A stretch of 55,986 nucleotides of DNA, taken from a virus. The notes below the pieces were generated by a model. The model was given only the letters and a program-made list of their open reading frames with translations, was not told the origin of the DNA and ran no database searches. Below, in pieces: positions 18,961-26,949 of this stretch. How positions within the stretch are numbered: the first letter of the stretch is position 1; each line of letters begins with the position of its first letter. The stretch lies in the IMG/VR virus record IMGVR_UViG_3300025127_005641, positions 1-55,986 of that record; one strand, given 5' to 3'. The position numbers and the translations under genes are program-made.

Positions 18961-19164
18961 ATGAGAGAACAACTAATTAAAGCACTTTTAGCACATGCAC
19001 AAGGAGACATTCAGAAACATGTTGCGAATGTTGAGGTTTATTTAACTAATCCTGCAGGTATTGGTGAGCACTCTAATATAGTAGAGGCAATCGAACAAGA
19101 ATTAAATGAGATCGCTAAGTATCAAGATCAGATAGAAGTAATAAATAAATACTTTAAAAAGTAA
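18961..19164 (+). CDS. Small conserved-type helical protein, 67 aa
   Basis: Encodes MREQLIKALLAHAQGDIQKH followed by two helices and KYFKK. It looks like a compact three-helix protein. It follows a 38-base gap with a TATAAT-like hexamer at 18935-18940, the only candidate promoter here, and precedes the next gene by three bases. Similar small proteins occur in cyanomyoviruses, but I know no function. Confidence 0.65.
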   Translation: MREQLIKALLAHAQGDIQKHVANVEVYLTNPAGIGEHSNIVEAIEQELNEIAKYQDQIEVINKYFKK

Positions 19165-20463: not shown

Positions 20464-20666
20464 ACCCAGAAATACTAACTCTTATAAAAAGTTTTGAACC
20501 TGATTCAAAAAATCCTAAAGAAAGGTATTCTGAGTTTTTGTATTATTGTTATTATAATCTTGATAAAATGATAAATAATTATAAGTTTAAAGATTTTGAT
20601 AGGGAATTACTTATCAAATATATTCTTGTACATAAGAAAGAGATAACTATACAATTATCCAAATGA
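20460..20666 (+). CDS. Small hypothetical protein, 68 aa
   Basis: Tyr- and Lys-rich helical protein (MNPEILTLIKSFEPDSKNPK, RYSEFLYYCYYNLDKMINNYKF). ATGA overlaps join it to both neighbours. It could be a partner of the larger upstream protein. No family recognised. Confidence 0.55.
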   Translation: MNPEILTLIKSFEPDSKNPKERYSEFLYYCYYNLDKMINNYKFKDFDRELLIKYILVHKKEITIQLSK

Positions 20667-21901
20667 AATCATTCTTACAATTTTTATCTGAATCCACAGC
20701 AGTTCAGCAAGCCACACGTATGGGTTTGACTGGTGATGGTCATGGTGGATGGTATGATAAAAATGGTGAGTTTGTAGCAAAAACAGAGAAGGGTGTATTA
20801 AAATTTTATAATAAAAGACAGAAAATTGGACAGCAAGATCCTAGACAATCTGATAAAGAAAAGAATTTATCACAGACAACATCTGCACAATCACAACAAC
20901 AGGTAGAACCACAACAACCTGTATCACAGAAAGATGATCCAGAAGGCCCAGTAGAACCAGATAAATTAACACCACCTCAAGTTGAAAAAACAAAAGGAAC
21001 TTTAACCATTGCTTTTGGTAGATTTAATCCACCCACAACAGGCCATGAAAAATTATTAGATACTGTTGCTAAATCTTCTGATGATGGGGATTATGTTATT
21101 GTTCCATCAAGGAGTCAGGATAAGAAAAAAAATCCACTAGATGCAGATCAGAAAGTTGGTGTGATGAGATCAATGTTCCCTAATCATAGTGAGAAGATTG
21201 TTAATGATCCTGCCAATAAAACTATCTTTGATGTATTAAAGAAGGCTCATAATGATGGTTACACGAATGTAAGATTAGTGGTTGGAGCTGATAGACAAAA
21301 AGAATTTGATAAATTGACTAATAATTATAATGGATTGCAATATGATTTTGATCAGGTAGAAGTTCGTTCTGCTGGTGATAGAGATCCTGATGGTGATGGT
21401 GTAGAAGGAATGTCTGCATCAAAGCAGAGAAAGTATGCTGCAGAAAATGATTTTGATAATTTCTTGAAGGGTGTTCCTACTGCCATGAATAGAAAATTAG
21501 CAAAGGATTTATTTAATAATATTCGTGCTGGTATGAATATTAAAGAAGGTTGGAACTTATGGGAAATTGCTCCTATATTTGATTGGAAAAATCTTCGTGA
21601 GAATTATGTAAACCAAAATATCTATAAGGTTGGCCAATTAGTTGAAAACCTTAATACAGGATTTATTGGTAAGATTATTCGTAGAGGTGCTAATTATTTA
21701 ATCTGTGTTACTGAAGATAAAATTATGTTCAAATCTTGGATAAAAGATGTAACTGAAGCAGTTGTTAATGGAACTACTAAATCTGGTGTTCCAGCACATC
21801 AAAGAGAAGTTGGAACTGATTCATTATTAAATTATGCTAAGTCAATGGTACCTGGAAGTGAGTGGGGAAAACATTTCATAAATAAGTATAGAAAAAAGTA
21901 A
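20663..21901 (+). CDS. Nucleotidyltransferase-domain protein with capsid-targeting-like N-terminus
   Basis: A 412-residue protein. The N-terminus MKSFLQFLSES resembles the capsid-targeting peptide of T4 internal head proteins (MKTYQEFIAE), with a hydrophobic-x-E site (L-S-E) like those cut by prohead protease gp21. A Gln/Pro-rich linker (about 60-110) leads to a cytidylyltransferase-like domain starting at LTIAFGRFNPPTTGHEKLLD (about 115-134), where TTGH is the (H/T)xGH nucleotide-binding motif. RLVVGADRQKEFDKL and the SASKQRKYAAE segment also fit that fold. The substrate is unknown. The C-terminal region is probably structural. The combination suggests an enzyme-like domain packaged in the head. 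Confidence 0.75.
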   Translation: MKSFLQFLSESTAVQQATRMGLTGDGHGGWYDKNGEFVAKTEKGVLKFYNKRQKIGQQDPRQSDKEKNLSQTTSAQSQQQVEPQQPVSQKDDPEGPVEPDKLTPPQVEKTKGTLTIAFGRFNPPTTGHEKLLDTVAKSSDDGDYVIVPSRSQDKKKNPLDADQKVGVMRSMFPNHSEKIVNDPANKTIFDVLKKAHNDGYTNVRLVVGADRQKEFDKLTNNYNGLQYDFDQVEVRSAGDRDPDGDGVEGMSASKQRKYAAENDFDNFLKGVPTAMNRKLAKDLFNNIRAGMNIKEGWNLWEIAPIFDWKNLRENYVNQNIYKVGQLVENLNTGFIGKIIRRGANYLICVTEDKIMFKSWIKDVTEAVVNGTTKSGVPAHQREVGTDSLLNYAKSMVPGSEWGKHFINKYRKK

Positions 21902-21919
21902 GTATTTCTTGGTTTTCAA

Positions 21920-24052
21920 ATGAGTAAGAATATTGTTGAAGAAAATCCTGTACAACAGTCTAGTGCACCATCTCAACCACAAGGTCAAGGTGCCACTGGT
22001 GGTCAAGATAAAATTAGAAAACAGGCTCGTCAACTTGCATATGACGTAAGATATAAAGTAAAGCAAGGATTTAAGGATGGCCAAAAGACTGATCCTGCGT
22101 CTTTAAAGAGAGCATATGCAACTCAACTTGGTAAGTCACCTGCACCAGGCCCTGTTAAATTACTTGCTAAAAAGATGCTTATTGGTGAGGAATATGATTT
22201 TGTAGATATTTCTGAAACTGTAGATAATGTTGTTTCTAGTGCCGTTAAACGAATTTTTACTAAGGTAACTAATCTTGAAGATGCTGATGGAAATCTTGCA
22301 TTTGAAGTTACTGATGTTGTTAGTGAGGAAATTGGAGAGAGAAAATATAAAATTAGAGTAAAGGATAAGAAAACTGGTAAGTCATATGTTCGTATGGCAA
22401 ACCGTGCCAAAATTTCTGAGTTAAGAAAAAATCCTAATATTGCTTCTGTAGAAATGACTGGATATGGTTCTCCATATGAAGGCGAGAAGAAGAAGGGTTC
22501 TGATACTGCAGCAGTAAAATCAGGTAAAGGTTTATCTGCAAAAGATTATGATGGTGATGGTAAGAAAGAAACACCAGAGGCAGAATATAAAGGTTCTAAA
22601 GATAAGGCAATTAAGAAAGCACTTACTAAAGAACATCATCAGAAAGATGCTGATGGTAAAGTTATAGAACATGGTGATGGTACACCAAGTTCTGTTGATG
22701 AAGCATTTATTGATGAAGTTAAGGATACTGATATTGATAATAATGTTAAAAAAGTTGATGTGATGAAAGGTAAAAATAAAGTTACTATTAACCCTAATCA
22801 ATCAGAACAAGTCGAGACAATGGAAAAACCAAAGGAAGATTCTAAGGAAAAGAGAGTTAGGTTGATGAAGCGTATGATTTTACAGAAAAAAATGCAAGCT
22901 GTAAGATCTGGTGCTGGTGCTGACATTGTTGCACATAATGAATTAAAAGGTGAGGTAGTTAATGAGAAGAAAGCTGCCAAAGACTATGATGGTGATGGTA
23001 AAATTGAATCAGGAACCGATGAATACATGGGATCTAAAGATAAGGCAATTAAAAAGGCGATGGGTAAAAAACATGATTGTGCATCTAAAGTAAAGCATGA
23101 AGAATATGGTATTGGTAATCCTGTAAAAGGAATGCACGATCTTGATGAGAGTGGAAACGTAGCACATTATGATGTGCTATTTGATCATGGTGTTGAGAAA
23201 AATGTTCCTGTTACTTCTTTAGAAATTTTGGAAGAAGGTATGCATGAGCATGTTATTCAGGGTGATGTTATTGAACAAAAGAAACCAAAAAATTGTGGTT
23301 GCGGTCAAGATCCTTGCATAACTTATGGTAAAAAAGATATGGGCGATACTATCGAAGAGGATGCTGATAAACTTTCTGATAAAGCATATGATCGAGCAAA
23401 AACACTAGGTGCTAGAAGAAGAAGTTCATATGAGTATAGAAAAAAAGGTAGTTATGGTCCTGGTAAGAACGAAAGAGCAGGTTACAACTTATCTCAATCA
23501 CAAAAAAGTCGTAATCGATCACCAGAAACACAAGGTGGTAATCAAACAGGTGGTGGTCCTAAGTCATTTGGATATGCTAGAAACAAAAGTAATCCTGTAA
23601 AATCCAAGAGTGGTTATGATTCTGGTGGTCAGGGACATCAAAAAAAGGCAGATACAAAGATCACTACCAAGAAAGATGGAAAGACACCTTTGAAGACACC
23701 TCGTTACAAATATTCCACAAAACAAAGAAGTGAAATGGGTTTCCAAGGAAGAATGGATAAGAGGGATCCTAAAAAGAATCCAAAGCATACTGCTAATACA
23801 CAAAAAGAATCATATACTACAAATCAGATTAGAAAACAAGATCTTGATTCTATGAGAGATAAAATTCGTTCTATATTAGAGAATGAATATAAAGATAGAG
23901 ATCCTAAAACTGGTGAGATGGATAATAAACCATCGGGTAGTGTAGAATTTGATGGTGGAGCAGTAATCAATCCTATTGGAGATCCAAGAGAAATGCCCAC
24001 AGCAATTAATCTTGTTAAAAATAAATTAAGAGCAAGAGGTATGAAAATATAA
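21920..24052 (+). CDS. Large charged virion-type protein with duplicated DYDGDG calcium-loop-like motifs
   Basis: A 710-residue, highly charged, low-complexity protein. Two copies of a unit of about 30 residues are present: AKDYDGDGKKETPEAEYKGS followed by KDKAIKKAL (DYDGDGK at 209-215) and AKDYDGDGKIESGTDEYMGS followed by KDKAIKKAM (355-361). DxDGDG matches the calcium-binding loop of EF-hands and dockerins. A Cys cluster (NCGCGQDPC) lies near 455-465 and the last 200 residues are Lys/Arg/Gly-rich. It resembles hypothetical virion proteins of cyanophages. It overlaps the next gene by one base. Function unknown; a head or structural role is inferred from its neighbours. Confidence 0.65.
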   Translation: MSKNIVEENPVQQSSAPSQPQGQGATGGQDKIRKQARQLAYDVRYKVKQGFKDGQKTDPASLKRAYATQLGKSPAPGPVKLLAKKMLIGEEYDFVDISETVDNVVSSAVKRIFTKVTNLEDADGNLAFEVTDVVSEEIGERKYKIRVKDKKTGKSYVRMANRAKISELRKNPNIASVEMTGYGSPYEGEKKKGSDTAAVKSGKGLSAKDYDGDGKKETPEAEYKGSKDKAIKKALTKEHHQKDADGKVIEHGDGTPSSVDEAFIDEVKDTDIDNNVKKVDVMKGKNKVTINPNQSEQVETMEKPKEDSKEKRVRLMKRMILQKKMQAVRSGAGADIVAHNELKGEVVNEKKAAKDYDGDGKIESGTDEYMGSKDKAIKKAMGKKHDCASKVKHEEYGIGNPVKGMHDLDESGNVAHYDVLFDHGVEKNVPVTSLEILEEGMHEHVIQGDVIEQKKPKNCGCGQDPCITYGKKDMGDTIEEDADKLSDKAYDRAKTLGARRRSSYEYRKKGSYGPGKNERAGYNLSQSQKSRNRSPETQGGNQTGGGPKSFGYARNKSNPVKSKSGYDSGGQGHQKKADTKITTKKDGKTPLKTPRYKYSTKQRSEMGFQGRMDKRDPKKNPKHTANTQKESYTTNQIRKQDLDSMRDKIRSILENEYKDRDPKTGEMDNKPSGSVEFDGGAVINPIGDPREMPTAINLVKNKLRARGMKI

Positions 24053-24258
24053 TGAAAACCTTTAAACAATTTGTAAGTGAAGAAGGTTATGATGTCGCAA
24101 GAGATCAAGGAAGAATAAAACCTGCGAAGGACAAGAAAGATGCAACTTCATATCCACCAAGTAAAGAAATGATGAAGACACAGAAGGTAAATAAAGGCCC
24201 TTCCGCACTTGAACTTGTCAAAAAGAAATATGGCAAGTCTATTATGAATGTAAAGTAA
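24052..24258 (+). CDS. Small basic protein with capsid-targeting-like N-terminus, 68 aa
   Basis: MKTFKQFVSEE is even closer to the T4 internal-protein targeting peptide MKTYQEFIAE than that of the nucleotidyltransferase gene, with V-S-E as a possible gp21-type cleavage site. The remaining 58 residues are Lys-rich (KDKKDATSYPPSKEM, ALELVKKKYGKS). This fits an internal head protein or core peptide packaged with DNA. One-base overlaps join it to both neighbours. Confidence 0.65.
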   Translation: MKTFKQFVSEEGYDVARDQGRIKPAKDKKDATSYPPSKEMMKTQKVNKGPSALELVKKKYGKSIMNVK

Positions 24259-26114
24259 TGCCAGCAGTATCTAAAAAACAACAAAAATTTTTTGGGATGG
24301 TTCGTGCGACCCAAAAAGGTGAAATGAAAAATCCATCTAAAGAAATTTTAGACGTTGCAAATGATATTAGCATGAAAGATGCAAAGAAATTTGCTAAAAC
24401 AAAGCATAAAGGTTTACCTGAAAAGAAAAAAATGAACGAAGACAATGTGCTTAAGAAAGTTGCAAAACAATTAGACGGTGCAAGTAAAATGCACAAGCAA
24501 CAAGCTAATAAAGTAAAAAAACATATAAAAGACATGCACAAAGAGGGGATGTATGATACAGATCCTAAAACAGGAGAATCACCTGTAGCAACTTCAGTTA
24601 GAAAAGGAAATAAAAAGAAAGGTGATGATAGACTAAAGCATTTTGCTAAACTTGCTAAAAAAATGGTAGGTGAAGAAAATATTGATGAAAAATGTTGGAA
24701 AGGATATGAGAAGAAAGGTATGAAGACAATGTTTGGTAAGAGATATCCAAACTGTGTTAAGAAAGAAGAGATTGAAAATGTGAGAGAAGGTGATGGTGAT
24801 CCTTGTTGGGATACACATAAGCAAGTTGGTATGAAAAAGAAAGGTGGTAAAATGGTTCCAAATTGTGTTCCCAAGAATGAAGAAGTTAAAAGAGATGAAT
24901 ATGGAGATCCAGTTGGAGGGCCTAAGATATCAAAGAAACAGAAAGCAAAAAATCTTTCATCAAATACACCTGATGAGCAACATACTACAACTACTTCAGA
25001 AGCAAAATATGAAAGAGGTGCATCAACTTACGGTAAAGCAACAATCAGAAATAAAAGAAAGTTTGGGACATCTGGTGAAATGCCTGATATTATGACTGGA
25101 AAGAAAATTACAAAAGATGCGACAAGAGGTGAACTAATTTCTAAGAGAAGAGAGGAACATAAGGCAAAACGTGGTGTTAAAGAAGAAATAGTAACAGAAT
25201 CAGATAAGAAAGGGAAGGGTAGTGGTAAGAAAGATGCTTGTTATCATAAGGTAAAAGCAAGTGCTAGTGTATGGCCTTCTGCATATGCATCAGGTAGATT
25301 AGTTCAGTGCCGTAAGAAGGGTGCTGCTAATTATGGTAATAGTAAGAAAGAATCATATTCTTGGAGAGAAGATTTTACCGAAGGCTCTCTTCATAAATGG
25401 TTCAAAGGATCCAAGTCTAAAGATGGTAAAGGTGGTTGGGTCAATGTAGTTACAGGTGGAACCTGTGCAAGTGATGAACCTGGTGAAGGAACACCAAAAT
25501 GTGTTTCATCTTCTAAGAGAGCAAGCATGACAAAGGCAGAAAGATTATCTGCTGCACGTCGTAAGAAAAAAGCAGATCCTGGTCAACAACAAAAGTCTGG
25601 TGCTGCAAAACCAACATACGTATCAACCGATAAACCTAAAAAGAAAAAGGTAAATGAAGCTGCTGCATGGACAAAAAAATCTGGTAAAAATCCTTCAGGT
25701 GGATTAAATGAGAAAGGTCGTAAGTCATACGAAAGAGAAAATCCTGGTAGTGATTTAAAATCACCAAGTAAAAAAGTTGGTAACAAACGTAGAGCAAGTT
25801 TCTGTGCTCGTATGAAAGGTATGAAAAAGAAACTTACAAGTGCAAAGACTGCAAGGGATCCAGATTCTAGAATTAATAAGTCACTCAGAGCATGGAATTG
25901 TGAACGTGAATTAAATGGTAATGTAATAAATGAAGAGGTTGGATATAAATCCTTTATGAAACAGACACAAGACGCAAGGGATAAAGTGAAACAAAAAGGA
26001 GAGGAAATGAAAAAAAAGGATGCTTCATATATTGATAGAGTAAGAAAAGGTATCAAGTTTTATGATAGAAAAGGATCTGGACGTATAGTAAAAGGTCAAA
26101 AAGTATATGATTGA
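24258..26114 (+). CDS. Modular lysine-rich protein (DUF3008-like N-terminus)
   Basis: A 618-residue, very basic protein that looks like a chain of small modules. It begins MPAVSKKQQKFFGMVRA, typical of DUF3008 proteins. Two copies of a Cys-paired unit follow: CWKGYEKKGMKTMFGKRYPNC (about 154-174) and CWDTHKQVGMKKKGGKMVPNC (about 188-208). Next is a DACYHKVKASASVWPSAYASG module (about 328-348), a GGWVNVVTGGTCASDEPGEG segment, and near the end an AAWTKKSGKNPSGGLNEKGR module (about 475-494) with CARMKGMKKKL. The content suggests DNA binding or packaging in the capsid. The assignment of each module is from memory of phage families. Confidence 0.65.
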   Translation: MPAVSKKQQKFFGMVRATQKGEMKNPSKEILDVANDISMKDAKKFAKTKHKGLPEKKKMNEDNVLKKVAKQLDGASKMHKQQANKVKKHIKDMHKEGMYDTDPKTGESPVATSVRKGNKKKGDDRLKHFAKLAKKMVGEENIDEKCWKGYEKKGMKTMFGKRYPNCVKKEEIENVREGDGDPCWDTHKQVGMKKKGGKMVPNCVPKNEEVKRDEYGDPVGGPKISKKQKAKNLSSNTPDEQHTTTTSEAKYERGASTYGKATIRNKRKFGTSGEMPDIMTGKKITKDATRGELISKRREEHKAKRGVKEEIVTESDKKGKGSGKKDACYHKVKASASVWPSAYASGRLVQCRKKGAANYGNSKKESYSWREDFTEGSLHKWFKGSKSKDGKGGWVNVVTGGTCASDEPGEGTPKCVSSSKRASMTKAERLSAARRKKKADPGQQQKSGAAKPTYVSTDKPKKKKVNEAAAWTKKSGKNPSGGLNEKGRKSYERENPGSDLKSPSKKVGNKRRASFCARMKGMKKKLTSAKTARDPDSRINKSLRAWNCERELNGNVINEEVGYKSFMKQTQDARDKVKQKGEEMKKKDASYIDRVRKGIKFYDRKGSGRIVKGQKVYD

Positions 26115-26350: not shown

Positions 26351-26358
26351 TATAAATA
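26351..26358 (+). promoter_or_regulatory. T4-type late promoter (TATAAATA)
   Basis: Exact TATAAATA octamer 33 bases before the ATG of the next gene, the classic spacing for T4-type late genes. It marks that gene as late and probably structural. Confidence 0.8.
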
Positions 26359-26391: not shown

Positions 26392-26949
26392 ATGGCTCTT
26401 TGGGGAAATAACGATAATGTAACCTCAGCTGGAGTGGTAACAGTGAGTTATGATGATTTGACTGTTACTGGAGATGGAACTGCTTTTGGTGCTGTCGGAT
26501 CCGCTAAAACTGGTGATGTAATAAGATTTGGTTTTAGAGGTGATAAAGTCAGTGCTGGAACTACATATTTTGGTGATGCTGTTATTAGTGGTATTACGAG
26601 TGCTACCTTATTGAGCATTGCTTCCACTGCAGGTCTTAGTGGGGCTGCAATTGGTGGTGCTGGTGGTACTGCTTTTTATATAAGTGAACTTCCATCATCT
26701 ACCGTAGGTGATTTTAGTTATAGTGAGAAAAATTCTGGATACGATAAAGTAGTCTATGGTATTAGTGATGCAACCTCCCAACTATATGATGGAAGTAGTA
26801 GTGAATTTAGAACAAGTGGTTCTGGTTGGGTAGGTGTTACAACTTATATTGACAGACATAATAATCTCAGAGTTAAATCTGAAATATTAGTTGCTACATC
26901 TGGTATCACAACTGGTTCTAACGGAATTGCTTATCCAACTAACGAATAA
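26392..26949 (+). CDS. Probable virion protein, Gly/Ser/Thr-rich, 185 aa
   Basis: A 185-residue beta-rich protein starting MALWGNNDNVTSAGVVTVSY, with long Gly/Ser/Ala-rich stretches (LSGAAIGGAGGTAFYIS) and a Thr/Gly-rich end. The composition and the exact late promoter upstream fit a structural protein. A good Shine-Dalgarno is not obvious; an AATAGGTAAAAAAC stretch precedes the ATG. No named family recognised. Confidence 0.7.
   Translation: MALWGNNDNVTSAGVVTVSYDDLTVTGDGTAFGAVGSAKTGDVIRFGFRGDKVSAGTTYFGDAVISGITSATLLSIASTAGLSGAAIGGAGGTAFYISELPSSTVGDFSYSEKNSGYDKVVYGISDATSQLYDGSSSEFRTSGSGWVGVTTYIDRHNNLRVKSEILVATSGITTGSNGIAYPTNE

Follow-up and report, generated by a model that had tools for sequence, protein, structure and literature searches.

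The 55,986-base IMG/VR record analysed here in its entirety (IMGVR_UViG_3300025127_005641, hereafter the window) has a gene content resembling that of T4-like cyanophages, including a DNA polymerase, a UvsX-like recombinase, a DnaB-like helicase and MazG. Two of its genes encode proteins that open with a ten-residue leader similar to the capsid-targeting sequence (CTS) of the T4 internal head proteins. The first is a nucleotidyltransferase of 412 amino acids (aa), whose nearest relatives are marine cyanophage enzymes, and the second is a basic protein of 68 aa. Two long basic proteins of 710 and 618 aa lie next to them, followed by a 185-aa protein whose gene we take as the end of a putative late virion cluster (Table 1).

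Table 1. Features of the locus, numbered from the first base of the window (ORF, open reading frame; nt, nucleotides).
Feature	Position	Strand	Remarks
ATAAATA, late-promoter-like, two overlapping copies	19141..19151	+	23-27 nt upstream of ORF 19168
Leader 1, MKSFLQFLSE, putative capsid-targeting peptide	20663..20692	+	predicted cut after Glu10; sequence pattern, conservation
Nucleotidyltransferase, 412 aa	20663..21901	+	ATG start, MKSFLQFLSESTAVQ...; PHROG395 / T4-GC190 family; predicted head cargo
Small post-leader (DGHG) module, QQATRMGL.GDGHGGWYD..GEFVAKT..G.LKFY	20705..20821	+	by eye plus tblastn
Adenylyltransferase-fold catalytic domain, residues 111-294	20993..21544	+	GRFNPPTTGH; SASKQRK
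C-terminal module, about residues 310-371	21590..21775	+	common to other phage proteins (PHROG4808, PHROG22379)
ATAAATA, late-promoter-like	21878..21884	+	42 nt upstream of ORF 21920
710-aa basic modular protein	21920..24052	+	no leader; 18 hydrophobic-x-Glu sites; virion placement putative
Leader 2, MKTFKQFVSE, putative capsid-targeting peptide	24052..24081	+	predicted cut after Glu10
68-aa basic protein	24052..24258	+	ATG start, MKTFKQFVSEEGYDV...; EEGYD..RD module
618-aa basic mosaic protein	24258..26114	+	no leader; DUF6321 at residues 476-546
618-aa protein, module 1-68 (MPAVSKKQQKFFGM...)	24258..24461	+	56% identity to free-standing S-SCSM1_93
618-aa protein, module A (CWKGYEKKG...)	24675..24758	+	I-D-E directly before
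618-aa protein, module B (DACYHKVK...WPSAYASG)	25233..25376	+	V-T-E directly before
618-aa protein, module C (SLHKWFKGSKSKDG...)	25386..25646	+	94% identity to part of S-SCSM1_29; F-T-E before
618-aa protein, module D (AAWTKKSGK...GGLNEKGRKSYE; DUF6321)	25647..25901	+	91% identity to part of S-SCSM1_29; V-N-E before
ATAAATA, late-promoter-like	26352..26358	+	40 nt upstream of ORF 26392
185-aa protein	26392..26949	+	59% identity to S-SCSM1_95 (annotated tail fiber, virion protein)

An earlier note on this DNA had likened the starts MKSFLQFLSES (20663) and MKTFKQFVSEE (24052) to the T4 targeting peptide; it was silent on the two large neighbouring proteins, on the module junctions and on further cargos with this leader. 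Both are confirmed as ORF starts, and the pattern MKx[FY]xx[FY][ILVMF]xE opens 2 of the 116 forward-strand ATG ORFs of at least 50 aa in the window. Shuffling residues 2-40 gives 0.001 such starts per shuffle (0.004 with residue 2 held fixed), so the two starts are real and cannot be put down to chance. According to the account of the T4 system in PMC9026906, the first ten residues of IPIII are enough for packaging, targeting is governed chiefly by residues 4 and 7 and processing by residues 8 and 10, and the protease gp21 cleaves after L/I-x-E. The window leaders share the layout of IPI, IPII and IPIII, that is, ten N-terminal residues with aromatics at 4 and 7 (Phe at both positions in the 68-aa protein also), a hydrophobic residue at 8 and Glu at 10. 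The note had further placed a hydrophobic-x-Glu site in each leader; the L-S-E of the enzyme fits the T4 consensus, and the V-S-E of the 68-aa protein strictly does not. Position 8 is Ile in most free-standing relatives of the latter, giving I-x-E. Since V-S-E lies outside L/I-x-E, we claim for the 68-aa protein only that its leader would work like a CTS.

The leader pattern, written as DNA and run on the T4 record as a positive control, gave three matches, which are ipII, ipIII and 61.1. The strict pattern gave 28 matches in 18 of 22 phage records (one of them, in HTVC008M, stands at the head of a 30-aa frame that is unlikely to be a gene), and the reversed pattern gave none. Strict matches were absent from P-SSP7 (T7-like), S-PM2, S-RSM4 and one ACG-2014f isolate, the last of which carries a leader that misses the pattern by one step (MAMRSFLTFLTEA). 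The S77 prohead protease is present in 15 of 15 T4-like phage records and absent from P-SSP7, the count for contigs of relatives being 3 of 6. T4 gene 61.1 itself (AF158101 18966-19130; 54 aa, hypothetical) begins MKTFKEFIKE, and its product would be a predicted internal head protein.

Conservation of the leader was followed in an alignment of 12 divergent enzyme sequences with 38-79% identity to the window protein. M1, F4 and F7 are invariant and K2 and E10 reach at least 90%, and the stretch between leader and catalytic domain is lost or unalignable in several of the sequences. Among the best 80 of 242 IMG/VR homologues, F7 occurs in all 80, position 4 is Phe in 70 and Leu in 10, and hydrophobic-x-Glu stands at 8-10 in 67, the other 13 being one residue shorter with F-x-E at 7-9. 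Conservation thus falls on the positions that matter in T4 genetics. Of three enzyme homologues in other phages, those of GAP32 and PA5oct begin close to the catalytic motif and are leaderless, so that the leader looks like an add-on to the enzyme; the third, from DLP_6, begins MKNIKDILEA, which may be a leader variant. It could be argued instead that the nucleotidyltransferase family simply keeps this stretch as its N-terminal helix, and that the likeness to T4 comes from convergence on a common amphipathic helix, as the MK-aromatic-rich start is short and is kept with the enzyme in most cyanophages seen. The GAP32 and PA5oct enzymes, beginning at the catalytic motif, speak against such a helix, as does the match between the conserved residues and those needed for targeting and processing in T4.

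The range of proteins behind the leader bears on the same point. A census of viral contigs with the pattern MK[ST]FxQFhxE, narrower than the strict leader, matched at least 120 viral stretches compared with 3 for the reversed pattern. Among the matches listed, 125 leader ORFs fall into 58 clusters (54 for ORFs of at least 40 aa) that blastp, run without the first 12 residues, leaves unjoined at E 1e-4. A helix private to one enzyme family would not be expected ahead of 58 clusters of cargo, nor would a reversed pattern at least 40 times rarer, and we regard that explanation as very improbable. Position 11, which the pattern leaves free, is Ala, Ser or Gly in 33 of the 58 listed clusters against a background of 24% (p = 7e-8), a bias at P1' that is as expected for a protease site. 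S77 (PF03420) scored over its cut-off in 8 of 24 leader-bearing IMG/VR records, a share with no IMG/VR base rate to set it against, the records having been picked mostly for size among 119 listed loci.

A Pfam scan of 20 leader cargos placed 6 above cut-off (a SAM lyase, a zeta-toxin/AAA kinase-like protein, a GNAT, an HNH, a DPBB lytic transglycosylase domain and DUF6267) and 3 below cut-off only, one of these an ADP-ribosyltransferase; 11 had no match at E 0.05. The breadth of this cargo is relevant to a reading that takes the leader for a peptide binding virions or cores in general, its carriers being structural or core proteins that attach to the scaffold or shell during assembly, with no injection. 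Such a peptide would account for an association that is, after all, with virions, and several of the cargos share the small size and basic character of core proteins. Enzymes without obvious structural use (SAM lyase, GNAT, HNH, kinase-like) fit it poorly, and in T4 IPI* is injected and IPIII-leader fusions reach the host; we therefore hold general binding to be unlikely, although it is the most serious of the alternatives. Since the same label stands on dozens of unrelated phage proteins, the leader may mark proteins that are packed and perhaps delivered to the host.

Several further carriers are of note. On contig L287 (6505-9422, minus strand) four adjoining MKTFKQF[IL]xE genes with unrelated bodies form a tagged-cargo cassette, and contig L286 has two leader genes. 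The biggest leader family among the matches listed (30 members of about 105-115 aa, with V.I.GDFNG.L.V and no Pfam match) includes L282 1953-2297, S-SCSM1_30 and S-SZBM1_191, and lies near terL in two phages. GNAT-like acetyltransferases with a capsid-targeting-like leader occur in S-CRM01 (g185; L198 43046-43441) and at L223 4149-4532, and leader-like peptides (RTFKEFLEYIE, KTFRDFLN) stand at the C-terminus at L140 11627-11836 and L145 7704-10313. Internal leader copies in long proteins number 50 forward and 18 reversed, and many of the forward matches look unrelated; the few convincing ones, such as ITYREFIAE in S-SZBM1_194 and MSFQQFQE before module A, are not a main argument here.

Published virion proteomes give a more direct association. 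Detection concerns enzyme homologues in four other phages, not the window phage or the 68-aa protein: the virion data, obtained by mass spectrometry, report S-CREM2 ORF154 with 3 peptides (PMC10665884), S-SZBM1_140 with 2 (PMC9146016), S-SCSM1 ORF91 (PMC9602691, and a note in its record) and an S-SM1 homologue (PMC3037559). A genome scan of S-CREM2, S-SZBM1 and S-SCSM1 gave nine annotated leader genes. All four from S-CREM2 (gp6, gp13, gp14 and gp154) are within its virion table of 52, S-SZBM1 contributes 140 (in virions) and 191 and 192 (not), and S-SCSM1 contributes 91 (in virions) and 30 (not). With this relaxed pattern 6 of 9 leader genes are in virions compared with 121 of 710 other genes (p = 0.0014), a value that is optimistic because the pattern was drawn up after S-CREM2 gp13 and gp14 had been seen, and that uses approximate coding-sequence totals (219, 218 and 282, from record feature counts and tag numbers). 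It becomes p = 0.003 if a further S-SCSM1 match at 131704 (69 aa) is counted; the remaining relaxed-pattern matches were excluded, as they lie inside other genes or have no annotated start in the tables used. Behind its leader S-CREM2 gp6 has a SAM lyase domain (PF23780, 2.3e-19, residues 37-170), and gp14 gives kinase-like matches below cut-off.

In the S-CREM2 and S-SCSM1 proteomics reports the authors caution that such proteins may co-purify. On that account the enzyme would be an abundant cytoplasmic protein carried along in caesium chloride and the leader would have some other role, to which the low peptide counts in S-CREM2 and S-SZBM1 lend some weight. The enzyme was found in four separate virion preparations of different phages, and every leader gene of S-CREM2 is in a table of 52 proteins, so that co-purification seems to us improbable.

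In the enzyme itself, FGRFNPPTTGH occupies residues 118-128, and a PF01467 match at residues 116-216 scores 35.5 bits against a cut-off of 21. GRFNPPTTGH and SASKQRK, which we take to be the two catalytic motifs of HIGH-superfamily nucleotidyltransferases, are largely kept in the 12-sequence alignment, and the profile match together with both motifs places the enzyme in that superfamily. A sequence-profile search of solved structures gave no match up to E 0.1, so that a fold search was needed. The model used for it has a mean pLDDT (predicted local distance difference test) of 62, residues 111-294 being mostly at 64-89 and the remainder poor. PPAT (Z 13.4, root-mean-square deviation 2.9, 150 aligned) and a bifunctional nicotinamide mononucleotide (NMN) adenylyltransferase (Z 12.8, deviation 4.2, 166 aligned) were tied. 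The description "cytidylyltransferase-like" in the earlier note is thus sound at the level of the superfamily and goes too far beyond it, because the domain folds like adenylyltransferases; the modelled fold favours adenylyl over cytidylyl transfer. NMN adenylyltransferase was tried as an identity, and we do not give the enzyme that name because the NCBIfam matches are all below cut-off (TIGR00482, 23.9 bits against 112.45; TIGR01526, 22 against 341.15).

A module resembling the DGHG module of the enzyme follows leader-like starts in S-CREM2 gp12 and gp14 and in S-CRM01 g128. In gp12 (L145 7704-10313), which is annotated as a CRISPR-Cas9 nuclease, is in virions and has no Pfam match at E 0.01, the leader-like LRFASFMAEA and the module lie near the N-terminus.

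The 618-aa protein next door is put together, mosaic-fashion, from modules that also occur in virion proteins. Its residues 1-68 match S-SCSM1_93, four more stretches have counterparts of 74-94% identity in S-SCSM1_29, where their order differs, and three modules are shared with S-CREM2_160; all three of these relatives are listed or annotated virion proteins. In the family of the 68-aa protein, free-standing copies mostly have the leader at their start, and copies within larger proteins have unrelated upstream sequence with hydrophobic-x-Glu kept directly before EGYD. Over five module types in distinct upstream contexts, the junction Glu has a hydrophobic P3 in 91 of 97 cases compared with 1013 of 3938 (26%) other Glu in the same proteins, a comparison that is mildly circular because the offsets were chosen from the profile of the same modules, and in which multi-module proteins enter the "other Glu" count more than once. 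The count leaves out modules F, G and I, whose junctions showed no clear signal. The simplest reading of these alignments is that the 618-aa protein would be a chain in which sites for the prohead protease separate one small basic protein from the next, the leader being one kind of junction. The 710-aa protein is likewise basic and modular; no virion homologue came to light for it. The virion proteins S-CREM2_160 (L139 13343-14236) and S-SCSM1_97 (L140 13122-13307) carry an arm, GFTG.AA..GP.AGYDPLM, that in the major capsid protein sits just after the predicted cleavage site; it is possibly a second head-docking route.

Late expression, which a head-assembly protein needs, would fit the ATAAATA copies upstream of genes at the locus. 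The motif is reported as the core of the S-PM2 late promoter NATAAATA (PMC2984593). It is depleted across the window (12 found, 38.5 expected), and only its position was used: 5 of the 10 plus-strand copies have a gene start 10-55 nt downstream, which is true of 6.4% of positions. As the list of gene starts was picked by eye, these positions are supporting evidence at most. For ORF 19168, behind the first of the motifs, no link to S-SCSM1_90 was found.

Taken together, the evidence makes it probable, and we hold with good confidence, that both N-termini function in the manner of the T4 targeting leaders and are cut off by the S77 prohead protease, leaving cargo free in the head that may enter the host. 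For the window phage we infer targeting, cleavage, injection and enzyme activity along the following lines. The proteins would be made late, and aromatic residues 4 and 7 of the leader would bind the prohead core and bring the protein inside, where S77 would cleave after Glu10 of the hydrophobic-x-Glu site. The mature protein would be left free in the head with the DNA and might pass into the host when the phage infects. In this scheme the nucleotidyltransferase would be an adenylyltransferase-fold enzyme, plausibly acting on NMN or nicotinamide adenine dinucleotide (NAD) and carried so as to be present from the first minutes, and the 68-aa protein would be an internal protein of small size and basic character. 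Strings of basic modules with protease-like junctions, cut up in the prohead, would make up the 618-aa protein and perhaps also the 710-aa one.

A number of points weigh against T4-type targeting and cleavage. Leader genes 191 and 192 of S-SZBM1 and 30 of S-SCSM1 went undetected by mass spectrometry, and the strict pattern, which was fixed beforehand, places 3 of 6 leader genes in virions over the three phages (p = 0.07). The S-PM2 enzyme has no leader and is fused behind another domain; Sullivan et al. (PMC3037559) report T4-GC190 in S-SM1 virions and its earlier non-detection in S-PM2 virions, which agrees with the leaderless enzyme, but the S-PM2 study missed eight further S-SM1 proteins too. 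The HTVC008M enzyme starts MKTLKELLRKK and lacks the Glu, the 68-aa protein departs from the T4 consensus as described above, and the 710-aa and 618-aa proteins have no N-terminal leader. Cleavage after Glu10 is a prediction from the sequence, and the S77 search covered phage records and contigs of relatives. Head targeting of leader proteins is nevertheless a well-supported inference. The earlier proposal that the enzyme is packaged in the head gains support from the conserved T4-critical residues, the add-on leader, the ipII/ipIII control and the homologues in four virion preparations, and its location in the head interior and its injection into the host are predictions.

Parts of this picture are established. 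The CTS and the varied cargo of T-even phages are described in PMC9026906 and PMC3012670, and the presence of the enzyme in cyanophage virions is known. The T4 internal proteins resemble the present case in that the DNA pattern of the leader also finds ipII and ipIII and an S77 protease occurs in the same kind of phage; they differ in that the window phage is cyanophage-like, a 412-aa nucleotidyltransferase and a protein of 68 aa make up its cargo, and processing is predicted here. The "cytitidyltransferase" T4-GC190 of cyanomyoviruses (PHROG395) is the same family in a similar place, between gp41/mazG and nrdA, and is a virion protein in S-SM1; in the literature searched, no paper was found that describes its leader as serving in targeting. 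Like T4 Alt, other head-packaged effectors and polyvalent proteins, which the sources present as enzymes packaged in the head that are believed to go to work as soon as infection begins, the window enzyme would be ready at entry, the difference being a short portable leader on many separate genes and protease-like sites between modules. In the open-access literature searched (few subscription papers and no bioRxiv preprints) we found neither a cyanophage enzyme with a CTS, nor the same leader on dozens of unrelated environmental-phage cargos, nor modular virion proteins with protease-like junctions.

Beyond the two window proteins, we lean somewhat towards the wider proposition that a gene starting MK[ST]FxQFhxE is head-loaded in T4-like phages of many environments, and that polyproteins cut at hydrophobic-x-Glu junctions let one gene deliver many small basic proteins, the cargo including counter-restriction (SAM lyase), acetyltransferase, HNH nuclease, kinase-like and NAD-related enzymes. 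Only for a few T4-like phages is it known what goes into the host along with the DNA, and with a ten-residue label legible in the sequence the question of injected cargo would become a genome search. Module junctions suggest a second delivery route, in which a string of cargo is cut apart inside the prohead. The label would also give a test of why enzymes such as the nucleotidyltransferase recur in cyanophage virion proteomes, and would predict which uncharacterized genes come into play within minutes of the start of infection.

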